From Treponema sp. (lineage in GTDB: Bacteria; Spirochaetota; Spirochaetia; Treponematales; Breznakiellaceae), in NCBI GenBank assembly GCA_009787835.1, contig WQSN01000020.1:1-42777 (forward strand): a stretch of DNA of 42,777 nucleotides, in the 5' to 3' direction. Within the stretch, counting starts at the first letter, position 1, and each line of letters opens with the position of its first letter. Positions 1-3,298 of the stretch are shown here, in pieces. A program made the position numbers and the translations under genes. The notes under the pieces were generated by a model. That model was not told the DNA's origin and searched no databases. It saw nothing but the letters and a program-made list of their open reading frames with translations.

Positions 1-2497
1 TTTGAAACCATTGGAAGAGATTGCCCGTAATCTCTGGTTATCCTGGAATTATGACGCGATTCAGCTTTTTATCAGGCTGGATTATGATGCATGGCTCCAA
101 TCCCAGCAAAGTCCGCTTCGGACACTGGGCATGGTGAGTCAGGAACGGCTTGCGCAAATCGCCAAAGACGATTCCTACCTGGCTGCTCTTAAAGAAGTTT
201 ATGGGCGGTTCCAGCGTTATAAAAAGGGAGAGACCTGGTACCGCGGCAGCCATAAGGATGTAGTTGCGTATTTCTCGATGGAATACGGAATGGACGCATC
301 CTTGCCTATCTATTCCGGCGGTCTTGGGATTCTGTCAGGGGATCACATGAAGACCTCTTCGGACATGGGCTTACCTTTGGTCGGTATCGGACTTTTATAC
401 CGGCAGGGATATTTTAAACAAATGCTGAATGCGGACGGATACCAGCAGGAAAGTTATCCGGAAAATGACTGGTACAATATGCCGGTAGAACGTAAATATG
501 GTAAGGACGGGCAGCCTATAAAAATTTCTGTAGATTTAGCGGGACGTCAGGCTATCGCTCAAATTTGGGAAGTAAAAGTCGGTCGCTCTTCACTTTTTCT
601 TTTGGATACAAATATCGAAGAAAACGCTCAGGATATTCGCAACATTACCGCAGCTCTTTACGGCGGGGATAAAGAAATAAGAATGCAGCAGGAAATTCTG
701 CTTGGTATCGGCGGTATCCGCGCTTTACGTGCGCTTGGTATTAACCCCGCCGCTACTCATATGAATGAAGGTCATGCGGCATTCCTCGGTCTTGAGCGTG
801 TACGTGAAATAATGACCGATAAAGGTTTTACTTTTGAGGAAGCCCGTGAAGCTGTATGGCCGACTAATATTTTTACAACACATACTCCGGTCCCGGCAGG
901 CAATGAACGTTTCGATCTGCAGATGATGGATAAATATTTCCGGGGCTGGCCGCAGGTTCTCGGTATTTCCTGGAAAGATTTCCTTGGCTTAGGCAGAGTC
1001 TATCCTAACGATGAACGTGAAACTTTCTGCATGACAGTACTGGCGCTCAAGATGGCGGCTTATGCCAATGGCGTTGCCATGCTTCATGGCGTAGTATCCC
1101 GTGATATGTGGAAGGGTTTATGGCCGGGTTTACCGCTCAGTGAAGTTCCAATCGGACATGTAACAAACGGCGTTCATGCCCGGACATGGATATCAAGCGG
1201 AATGATAGATCTTTTAGACCGGTATTTCGGTCCCAATTTTGAGAACAAACCTACAGATTTAAAAATTTGGGAACGCATGGATCGTATTTCCGATGAAGAA
1301 TTATGGCGCACTCATGAACGCCGCCGTGAAAAGCTTGTTGTTTTTGTTCGGGAGCGTATCCGTGAACAGTACGTGCGTACAGGCGTGGCTGAACAGCGAA
1401 TGCGGCAGGCTGATGACGCTCTTTCGCCCTATGCGCTGACACTTTGTTTTGCACGCCGTTTCGCGACATATAAGCGCGGCAATCTGCTTCTTCGTGATCC
1501 TGAACGCCTTATCAAGCTGGTAAAAGATAATGAATATCCCATTCAGTTAATATTCGCCGGCAAGGCCCATCCGCATGATATGCCCGGTAAGGAATTAATC
1601 CGCGAAATTATTCACTTTGCCGATAAGTACGATGTTTCAAGCCGCATTGTATTTGTGGAAAATTACGATATAAATGTCGCTAAATATTTAACATCAGGTG
1701 GCGATGTCTGGCTTAACACACCCAGGCGTCCAATGGAAGCATCCGGAACCAGCGGCATGAAAGCGGCCATGAACGGCGTGTTAAACTGTTCAATCATGGA
1801 CGGATGGTGGGACGAAGCCTACGAGCCTGAAGTAGGCTGGTCAATCGGTCATGGCGAAGAGTACAAAGATGAGAGACTTCAGGACGATATTGAAAGCAAG
1901 GCCCTTTATGATCTTTTGGAAAGGGATATTATTCCTTTGTTCTATCAAAGAGGACGGGACGGTCTGCCCCGCGAATGGATAAAACGGATGAAGGAATGTA
2001 TGAAACGAATTGGGCAGTCAATGGCATCCCACCGCATGTTGATGGATTATTCGAATCAATTTTACTTTCCCGCGCTCAAAAATTACCGGCGTTTCAGTAA
2101 AGACGATTATGCCGAAGCCAAGTCGCTTGCGGCGTATTTCGGCAAACTGCAGAATTCCTGGCCGGGTCTAAAAATTGTTAAAATTGAGTCCAACTCCAGA
2201 CCGGTAATGCAGCGCGGCGATACTTTAACCGTAACCGCATACCTTAACCTTGGCAGCATCTCACCCCATGAGCTGTTGGTTGAGCTGTACCACGGCAGGG
2301 TGTTAAGCCAAACCTACGAAATTTCCAATGCCCGTAAATCAGAGATGAAGTGGATTAAAAGCGAAGGCGAGCTTAATCTGTATCAGGTCCGCGTAGAATG
2401 TGTCGATACCGGAATGCAGGGCCACACAGTGCGCATTCTGCCAAAACACGAAGCGCTCATACATCCATATCGCACCGGCTTCATTAAATGGGCGTAA
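1..2497 (+). CDS. glgP: Alpha-glucan (glycogen/maltodextrin) phosphorylase, 5' truncated by window edge
   Basis: This enzyme cleaves alpha-1,4-glucans with phosphate to release glucose-1-phosphate, so it mobilises cytoplasmic glycogen. About 831 residues are visible. The reading frame is open to the first base and its first codon is TTG with no ribosome binding site in view. The protein begins directly with the conserved KPLEEIARNLWLSWN block, which family members normally carry some residues in. I therefore treat it as missing a short N-terminus rather than starting at base 2. The PLP-binding signature SGTSGMKAAMNG is present; its lysine codon is at 1760-1762, about residue 587 of the visible part. 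The GGLGILSGDH and HMNEGHAAFLGLER blocks are also present. The protein resembles the roughly 850-residue bacterial alpha-glucan phosphorylase branch rather than the muscle-type branch. Downstream lies a hairpin, then an unrelated queuosine-salvage gene. Confidence 0.95.
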   Translation, partial: LKPLEEIARNLWLSWNYDAIQLFIRLDYDAWLQSQQSPLRTLGMVSQERLAQIAKDDSYLAALKEVYGRFQRYKKGETWYRGSHKDVVAYFSMEYGMDASLPIYSGGLGILSGDHMKTSSDMGLPLVGIGLLYRQGYFKQMLNADGYQQESYPENDWYNMPVERKYGKDGQPIKISVDLAGRQAIAQIWEVKVGRSSLFLLDTNIEENAQDIRNITAALYGGDKEIRMQQEILLGIGGIRALRALGINPAATHMNEGHAAFLGLERVREIMTDKGFTFEEAREAVWPTNIFTTHTPVPAGNERFDLQMMDKYFRGWPQVLGISWKDFLGLGRVYPNDERETFCMTVLALKMAAYANGVAMLHGVVSRDMWKGLWPGLPLSEVPIGHVTNGVHARTWISSGMIDLLDRYFGPNFENKPTDLKIWERMDRISDEELWRTHERRREKLVVFVRERIREQYVRTGVAEQRMRQADDALSPYALTLCFARRFATYKRGNLLLRDPERLIKLVKDNEYPIQLIFAGKAHPHDMPGKELIREIIHFADKYDVSSRIVFVENYDINVAKYLTSGGDVWLNTPRRPMEASGTSGMKAAMNGVLNCSIMDGWWDEAYEPEVGWSIGHGEEYKDERLQDDIESKALYDLLERDIIPLFYQRGRDGLPREWIKRMKECMKRIGQSMASHRMLMDYSNQFYFPALKNYRRFSKDDYAEAKSLAAYFGKLQNSWPGLKIVKIESNSRPVMQRGDTLTVTAYLNLGSISPHELLVELYHGRVLSQTYEISNARKSEMKWIKSEGELNLYQVRVECVDTGMQGHTVRILPKHEALIHPYRTGFIKWA

Positions 2498-2508
2498 TTT
2501 ATATAACG

Positions 2509-2559
2509 AACTGAGAGTTGGGAATTATAGCGCGAGTTTATATTTTCCAATTCTCAGTT
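2509..2559 (+). repeat. Long inverted repeat (hairpin), possible terminator of glgP
   Basis: The arms 2509-2524 (AACTGAGAGTTGGGAA) and 2545-2559 (TTCCAATTCTCAGTT) pair over about 15 positions if G-U pairs are allowed, around a 20-base loop. A short T-rich run follows. It lies 12 bases after the glgP stop codon and only 6 bases before the riboswitch aptamer. It could terminate glgP, but the stem is not GC-rich and the T-run is short. It could equally be a dispersed repeat. The yhhQ promoter is unresolved; a weak TATATT at 2539-2544 lies inside the loop and second arm. Confidence 0.5.
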
Positions 2560-2565
2560 TTAATG

Positions 2566-2604
2566 AGGCAGTATCCTTGATAACCTGCCTGGAACAAAAC
2601 AAGG
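2566..2604 (+). promoter_or_regulatory. preQ1-I-type riboswitch (H-type pseudoknot) controlling yhhQ
   Basis: Stem P1 is AGGCAG (2566-2571) with CTGCCT (2585-2590), 6 perfect pairs. The loop holds TAT, then CCTTG (2575-2579), then ATAA, then a cytosine at 2584 immediately before the 3' arm of P1. That is where the ligand-pairing C sits in class I preQ1 aptamers. After P1 comes an A-rich strand (2591-2599), then CAAGG (2600-2604), which pairs perfectly with CCTTG to make pseudoknot stem P2. CAAGG overlaps the Shine-Dalgarno AAGGAG (2601-2606) of the next gene, so ligand binding should block translation. The AACAAAACAAGG tail closely resembles the tail I recall from the well-studied Thermoanaerobacter preQ1-I element. 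The downstream gene is a queuosine-precursor transporter, which fits the ligand. Confidence 0.85.
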
Positions 2605-2614
2605 AGATAATAAA

Positions 2615-3298
2615 GTGAAACCTTCCTCTTTCAAATACCTCGACATAATTGCATCGTTTTTTGTTGGTATCCTCATTATCAGTAATGTCGCGTCTTCCGC
2701 GAAAATTGTTGACATCGGTTTTTCGCTGTTTACCATTCCGCTGGTTTTTGACGGCGGCACATTGCTCTTTCCTCTTGTTTATGTGCTTGGAGATGTGCTG
2801 ACCGAGGTTTACGGGTTTAAAGTCACCCGGCGCGTTATCTGGACAGGGTTCGCGGCATTGGCGCTTACTGCGGCTGTTTTCTTTATTCTGGGGATATTGC
2901 CCCCTGAAGCTTACTGGGAAGCCGAAGCCGGCAGCGTTGCGTATAACACTATCCTCGGAGGGATGAGTTACGGCGGCATTGTGCTTGCAAGTCTTTCAGC
3001 TTATCTTGCCGGAGAATTTTCCAACGCTATAATTCTTTCAAAACTTAAAGTGAAGATGAAAGGCCGTTTGTTATGGGTGCGAACCATAAGTTCCACTCTT
3101 GCCGGAGAATTGCTTGATACTGTAATTTTTGTGCTGATAGCAACAATCACCGGAGTTTTTGGATGGGAAATTTTTTGGAGCCTTGTAATTACAAATTATA
3201 TTATTAAATGCGGCATTGAAGTTTTAATAACGCCTTTCACTTATTGGGTATCGCGGATCTTAAAGCTGAAGGAAGAAATTGATGTGTATGATGTTTAG
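2615..3298 (+). CDS. yhhQ: Queuosine precursor transporter, YhhQ/VUT family (DUF165)
   Basis: This is an inner-membrane transporter for queuosine precursors (preQ0/preQ1 in characterised members), feeding tRNA wobble-position queuosine synthesis. The 227-residue protein has about six hydrophobic segments. It carries the family features: an N-terminal ISNVASSAKIV segment, the GGTLLFPLVYVLGDVLTEVYGF block near residues 48-69, and the late VITNYIIKCGIEVLITPFTY segment. Length is normal for the family. Translation starts at GTG 2615; the AAGGAG at 2601-2606 is a strong ribosome binding site and is embedded in the riboswitch pseudoknot. No other queuosine gene is nearby, so this looks like a salvage-only locus, controlled by its own ligand. 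Confidence 0.9.
   Translation: MKPSSFKYLDIIASFFVGILIISNVASSAKIVDIGFSLFTIPLVFDGGTLLFPLVYVLGDVLTEVYGFKVTRRVIWTGFAALALTAAVFFILGILPPEAYWEAEAGSVAYNTILGGMSYGGIVLASLSAYLAGEFSNAIILSKLKVKMKGRLLWVRTISSTLAGELLDTVIFVLIATITGVFGWEIFWSLVITNYIIKCGIEVLITPFTYWVSRILKLKEEIDVYDV

Follow-up and report, generated by a model that had tools for sequence, protein, structure and literature searches.

A probable translational class I preQ1 riboswitch in front of a queuosine-precursor transporter gene in Treponema and related spirochaetes

Background

Riboswitches of the preQ1-I class are divided into types by the bases that precede the 3' arm of helix P1. UC at this place marks type I and AC marks type II, while type III has AC together with UU after the P1 5' arm (PMC11625349). 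The described systems closest to the locus presented here are the type II aptamers of Thermoanaerobacter tengcongensis (Tte) and Bacillus subtilis (Bsu) and the type III riboswitch of Escherichia coli yhhQ. In Bsu the second helix, P2, is formed by canonical Watson-Crick pairs; in Tte two of its four steps are canonical (PMC11625349). The E. coli element is characterized by a short pyrimidine-rich loop and by a strong burial of the AAGG sequence (PMC10622847, PMC11625349).

The review cited above names phyla for type I and gives type II a 'similar phylogenetic distribution'; spirochaetes are not on that list (PMC11625349). A search of titles and abstract openings in open-licence PubMed Central also returned no description of a preQ1 riboswitch in spirochaetes. 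Here we examine an element from a Treponema genome that would place preQ1 riboswitches in this missing phylum. Judged from its sequence and from the leaders of related bacteria, it is very probably a preQ1 riboswitch of class I, type II, that acts on translation and controls a transporter gene. It is thus a well-supported case of a known kind of riboswitch, new mainly in its phylum and in scoring below the cut-off of the standard model.

Architecture of the element and its place among the preQ1-I types

The window, by which we mean the whole analysed stretch of 42,777 nt (assembly GCA_009787835.1, contig WQSN01000020.1), had been predicted to carry a preQ1-I pseudoknot whose last strand coincides with the ribosome binding site of a yhhQ gene. 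A complete class I preQ1 pseudoknot is indeed present at 2566-2606 of the plus strand. It reads, in order, AGGCAG UAU CCUUG AUAA C CUGCCU GGAACAAAA CAAGG AG, and the 3' strand of P2 overlaps the Shine-Dalgarno sequence as proposed (Table 1). The original prediction also held for the gene behind the element, and its identity could be refined: the product matches TIGR00697 with 106.6 bits (cut-off 50.95) as well as Pfam PF02592 (Vut_1). The outer A-T pair of the six-pair P1 lies outside the five pairs that were modelled from relatives.

Table 1. Elements of the riboswitch and neighbouring features in the window
Feature	Position	Strand	Evidence
P1 5' arm, AGGCAG	2566..2571	+	Sequence; six pairs with 2585-2590
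L1, UAU	2572..2574	+	U directly 3' of P1 in 42/42 aligned sequences
P2 5' strand, CCUUG (anti-Shine-Dalgarno)	2575..2579	+	Five Watson-Crick pairs with 2600-2604
L2, AUAA	2580..2583	+	Sequence; last A kept in 42/42 aligned sequences
Putative specificity cytosine, adjoining P1 3' arm	2584	+	C in 42/42; function by homology (PMC11625349)
P1 3' arm, CUGCCU	2585..2590	+	Sequence; pairs with 2566-2571
L3, A-rich strand, GGAACAAAA	2591..2599	+	AAAA in 42/42 aligned sequences (AAAAC was a selection criterion)
P2 3' strand, CAAGG, overlaps Shine-Dalgarno	2600..2604	+	Complementary to 2575-2579
Shine-Dalgarno, AAGGAG, 8 nt 5' of the GTG start	2601..2606	+	AAGGAG in 27/42 aligned sequences
Queuosine-precursor transporter gene (yhhQ-like, 227 aa), GTG start at 2615	2615..3298	+	TIGR00697, Vut_1
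Upstream neighbour, carbohydrate phosphorylase (glgP-like)	2..2497	+	PF00343, PF11897
Strong hairpin between phosphorylase gene and riboswitch, then short U run	2508..2560	+	-26.1 kcal/mol, z -6.4

The features expected of class I type II, namely a P1 of 5-6 bp, AC before its 3' arm, an A-rich L3, a P2 and an association with a queuosine gene, were all found. At the two diagnostic places, 5' of the second P1 arm and 3' of the first, the window has AC and UA; type I would show UC and UU there, and type III would have UU at the latter place. By these sequence signatures the window element is type II, with an unusually complete P2.

The likeness to Tte is most evident in the tail, where both have the same 12 bases, AACAAAACAAGG (Tte letters taken from PMC10639078). 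They also share the P1 hairpin, the AC step with the specificity cytosine and the overlap with the Shine-Dalgarno sequence, but the P1 sequences differ, and so do the P1 loops (UAUCCUUGAUAAC in the window, UCGCAGUAAC in Tte). The Tte loop UCGCAGUAAC recurs unchanged in one spirochaetal locus, L229. The P2 of the window has five canonical pairs, in contrast to that of Tte, and in this respect it resembles Bsu, with which it shares the fold and the AC step too (PMC11625349). However, Bsu controls transcription termination, whereas the window has the Shine-Dalgarno sequence in P2. With the E. coli type III riboswitch it has in common the kind of gene, the AC step and, as predicted here, the burial of AAGG (PMC10622847, PMC11625349), but it lacks the conserved UU of type III and has a 13-base loop in place of the short one.

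When folded with pseudoknots disallowed, the window RNA had a minimum free energy structure no better than shuffled sequences (z -0.82; 40/200). A competing loop hairpin, UAUC/GAUA, appeared in this fold and was set aside, as it cannot form in the loops of several relatives. We also applied a strict string rule, consisting of a 5-bp P1, C before its 3' arm, an AAAAC tail and a fully Watson-Crick P2. It fires once in the window, at this site; when the whole window was shuffled 300 times with dinucleotides preserved, 6 of the shuffles also matched, so the match is uncommon, though not decisive.

Detection by covariance models

The Rfam PreQ1 model, RF00522, had no match in the window at its gathering score and none around the site at E up to 10. 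Its best scores in the same genome were 13 to 16 bits, all at other places. The class II and class III preQ1 models likewise had no match at gathering score in the window and none at E up to 10 in 2490-2680. Other Rfam matches near the site, among them microRNA models on the upstream hairpin, appear to be chance matches. As the lack of a covariance-model hit had been named in advance as counting against the prediction, an independent model was built.

This model, R1, derives from 41 related leaders with the window held out and P1 as the only structure. A script had picked leaders with AAAAC and a five-pair P1, some of them coming from a scan of genome contigs for the tail pattern, and 48 distinct sequences were aligned. 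Seven were removed, namely the window itself, L146, L148 and L151 (shifted by MAFFT) and L150, L152 and L153 (divergent loops), and the remaining 41 were realigned. R1 finds the window at 2566-2607 with 49.1 bits, in support of the pseudoknot as predicted. The E-values of this match (2.4e-13 in the window, 1.7e-11 in the genome) are too optimistic, because a second match in the window, presumably noise, still receives an E of 0.00065 at 18.1 bits; the 31-bit gap between the two is the safer measure. This second match (38574-38537, minus strand) is at noise level in the genome (E 0.047), and the frame there looks by eye like an ABC-type permease and not like a queuosine gene. A further 12 weak R1 matches in other contigs and genomes were dropped upon manual inspection, none having a queuosine gene behind it.

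The Rfam result thus stands as a formal point against the original prediction, while the held-out model recovers the site. We do not think that the former refutes the riboswitch, because RF00522 exceeds its 39-bit gathering cut-off in none of the 117 related genomes; it did so in one of 14 control genomes. On true sister elements it yields weak matches (G057:C74, 24.3 bits; G011:C79, 21.4 bits; G020:C75, 20.9 bits) that are mixed with equally strong ones elsewhere. Across 20 loci of relatives, its only match was one of 20.1 bits on the L150 element, and no match was listed on seven further loci, which included Tte-like and queT leaders. RF00522 at its cut-off hence overlooks a large conserved group, and counts that rest on this cut-off alone would be too low.

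Conservation and covariation

Three bases are invariant in all 42 sequences (41 relatives plus the window): the U that follows the P1 5' arm, and the A and C of the step that precedes its 3' arm. The second L1 base varies, being A in 30, C in 11 and U in one of them. Within P1, both sides of pair 1 have changed in 8 and both sides of pair 4 in 20 of the 41 aligned relatives, while three of the five modelled pairs never vary. The covariation score of P1 was reached by none of 500 shuffles, in a set whose selection rule required P1 pairing; the complete P1 pairing (100%) and the invariant AAAA in the alignment are accordingly due in part to the way the leaders were chosen.

The P1 test was therefore repeated with the tail as sole anchor. 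The pattern [ACT]AAAACn(n)GG was applied to 84 transporter loci, three of which are cut by contig ends, and was present in 49 of the 81 readable leaders. In 40 of these 49 there is a P1 of five Watson-Crick pairs whose 3' arm is preceded by C, compared with 303 of 9800 shuffled 60-mers (3.1%). Most of the nine leaders that fail can be explained by the rule: L029 has a G-U pair, the inserts of L030, L112, L118, L129 and L134 exceed the permitted lengths, and the tail region of L138 contains an insert. The truly damaged ones are L136, with a degraded P1, and L152, with U at the specificity base.

P2 pairs in 75.5% of cells among the 41 relatives with weak covariation, and the pair adjoining the closing G-C is mismatched in 30 of them; half of the Tte P2, too, is non-canonical (PMC11625349). 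Among the 42 sequences, P2 is Watson-Crick throughout in five, namely the window and four relatives. The compensatory changes looked for in related leaders were hence seen in P1, at pairs 1 and 4, but hardly in P2.

Distribution and gene association

A protein search for the transporter in 117 genomes gave 79 positive genomes and 87 places, of which 84 loci were taken. Of the three remaining places, L205 and L207 also have the element, and the last is a 3' fragment. With R1, 51 of the 84 loci gave a match (E 7.4e-5 or better); the training set contained 36 of these or sequences identical to them, and 15, including the window, lie outside it. No R1 match at E below 0.001 was found in the other 33, three of which are cut by contig ends.

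Loss of P1, P2 or the conserved cytosine from leaders that keep the gene had been named as a second way in which the prediction could fail. Some relatives do keep the gene without the element, but where R1 has no match the leader usually shows no trace of it at all; exceptions with one damaged part exist in L136 and L152. In four loci (L013, L025, L035, L125) the element is absent and an in-frame start lies inside the last codons of an upstream phosphorylase-type gene. We do not think that the element-free relatives refute the riboswitch, since their leaders are mostly devoid of it and these four have the gene start within the preceding gene. Start overlap without a riboswitch occurs in at least two separate branches, and at these loci translational coupling may have taken the place of the switch. 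Another form of the transporter, riboswitch-free and with a different start region, was observed at G023:C63, G028:C113 and G029:C70 (L028, L026 and L027, respectively); G023 and G028 additionally hold a riboswitch-bearing copy. On a tree of 83 transporter proteins the presence of the element needs 14 changes, compared with 26.0 in shuffles. The value of 14 may be a few too many, as L016, L132 and L162, whose leaders run into contig ends, were labelled as lacking the element and L138 was omitted because it was too short; the placement of some long branches is also uncertain. Within one genus some members lack the element, and such pairs, provided by nature, could be used to measure the benefit of the switch.

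Across the phylum, 26 of 392 genomes drawn from it have an R1 match at E 0.001 or better. The transporter lies directly behind the element in 13 of 15 inspected loci (eight checked for Vut_1, five by eye); L229 among them is the same site as L160, and L221 was inspected additionally. The matches at L230 and L231 look like noise. The element also precedes divergent Vut_1 transporters in other spirochaete families.

A scan of genome contigs with a plain DNA pattern taken from the window's tail returned 73 stretches. Eleven score at least 40 bits with R1, on eight spirochaete contigs (one with two elements) and three of Acholeplasmatales; the others look like chance matches to the tail. Outside the phylum, the three Acholeplasmatales leaders score 40.0 bits. 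A QueT-like frame follows the element directly in two of them, one confirmed by Pfam QueT, and in the third the downstream frame runs off the analysed stretch. QueT is the other known preQ1 transporter.

Queuosine pathway and the likely ligand

In the genome that holds the window we found tgt, queA and queH, while queC, queF and queG were not above cut-off. With 143 contigs, a completeness of 96% and a contamination of 8%, this assembly does not make single presences or absences a proof. queC was above cut-off in none of the 117 related genomes. The gene set corresponds to a pathway variant that is listed as one salvaging queuine or preQ1 (PMC6593275). Given this gene content, the host should import preQ1, and the switch would then control the step at which the queuosine precursor enters these bacteria, which apparently depend on salvage alone.

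It is improbable that the fold senses preQ0 or queuine instead of preQ1 in this lineage, although the apparent reliance on salvage and the import of preQ0 by YhhQ proteins (PMC10622847) speak for it. With queA and queH present and no queF match, imported preQ0 would lead nowhere, and a supply of queuine would leave queA without a task. Moreover, neither the specificity cytosine nor the AC step varies in the window's group, and the Tte aptamer has a 17-fold preference for preQ1 (PMC10622847). We therefore retain preQ1 as the likely ligand. A different arrangement exists in relatives that do bear queF: in six of seven, this gene lies directly behind the riboswitch-bearing transporter, so the switch there probably covers a unit for preQ0 import and reduction.

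Mode of regulation

Without preQ1, P1 would form and the 3' tail AACAAAACAAGGAG would remain single-stranded, leaving AAGGAG free for the ribosome, and the transporter would be made. As imported preQ1 accumulates, it would pair with C2584 on top of P1. In the bound state CCUUG would pair with CAAGG, the A-rich strand would dock along P1, four of the six Shine-Dalgarno bases would be buried and synthesis of the transporter would stop. That the ligand is preQ1, that it binds at 1:1, that the bases become buried and that regulation runs in this direction is inferred from the well-studied Tte and Bsu homologues; translational repression by preQ1 follows known class I behaviour (PMC11625349).

The arrangement in relatives is in line with this model. 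In six of them (L008, L011, L012, L014, L018, L023), out of 32 of the 84 loci in which an upstream stop motif was found, 10-26 nt separate the upstream stop codon from the beginning of the element, which would place it between two genes that are transcribed together. A promoter would hardly fit into such a gap, in agreement with control at the level of translation.

A preQ1-I aptamer acting on transcription through a terminator and antiterminator, as the type II aptamer of Bsu does (PMC11625349), is very improbable. There is a strong hairpin nearby (2508-2560, with an outer stem of 17 bp), but it lies upstream of the aptamer; it is possibly the terminator of the phosphorylase gene. No terminator was called in 2350-2700 by a scan that is insensitive to long loops and missed this very hairpin, and P2 itself holds the Shine-Dalgarno sequence, 8 nt from the start codon. 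A second copy of the hairpin, as expected of a dispersed repeat, was sought in the genome and not found.

Even more remote is a reading in which a repressor binds the dyad GGCAG-N13-CTGCC as its operator in the DNA and what remains is a ribosome binding site of the usual kind: P1 is a palindrome adjoining a transporter gene and operators likewise keep dyad symmetry, but here the conserved bases are one-sided (AC before the 3' arm, AAAAC behind it), the arm spacing varies and even accommodates inserted hairpins in L118 and L129, the position is fixed relative to the Shine-Dalgarno sequence, and the tail equals that of the Tte aptamer.

Structural variants

Besides L118 and L129, in which hairpins are inserted in the P1 loop, additional hairpins were seen in L030, L112 and L134. 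These belong to one four-row clade and have unlike hairpins at the same place, between the P1 3' arm and AAAAC. A second kind of variation concerns the transporter-queF clusters, where the AC step is replaced by UC, CC or AU in five of six members (L146, L148, L151, L152, L153); in L152, U would occupy the specificity base. These replacements may change the stoichiometry or the choice of ligand.

There is some chance, although we consider it rather unlikely, that the spirochaetal elements form a structural branch of preQ1-I of their own. This reading is based on the window and four relatives, in which the pocket is that of type II while P2 has five pairs, all Watson-Crick, and would bury AAGG as in type III, on the accessory hairpins and on the AC replacements in the queF clusters. 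If true, it would mean that the borders between types I, II and III do not delimit natural classes.

We could also observe rearranged copies. In G021, two preQ1-I elements lie in tandem before one transporter (L194:864-906 and L194:1024-1066, minus strand), apparently after a local duplication. In G006, an intact riboswitch (L193:1089-1190) is followed by the first codons of what appears to be a broken-off transporter gene, and a small lipoprotein-like gene separates this broken copy from the next full riboswitch and transporter.
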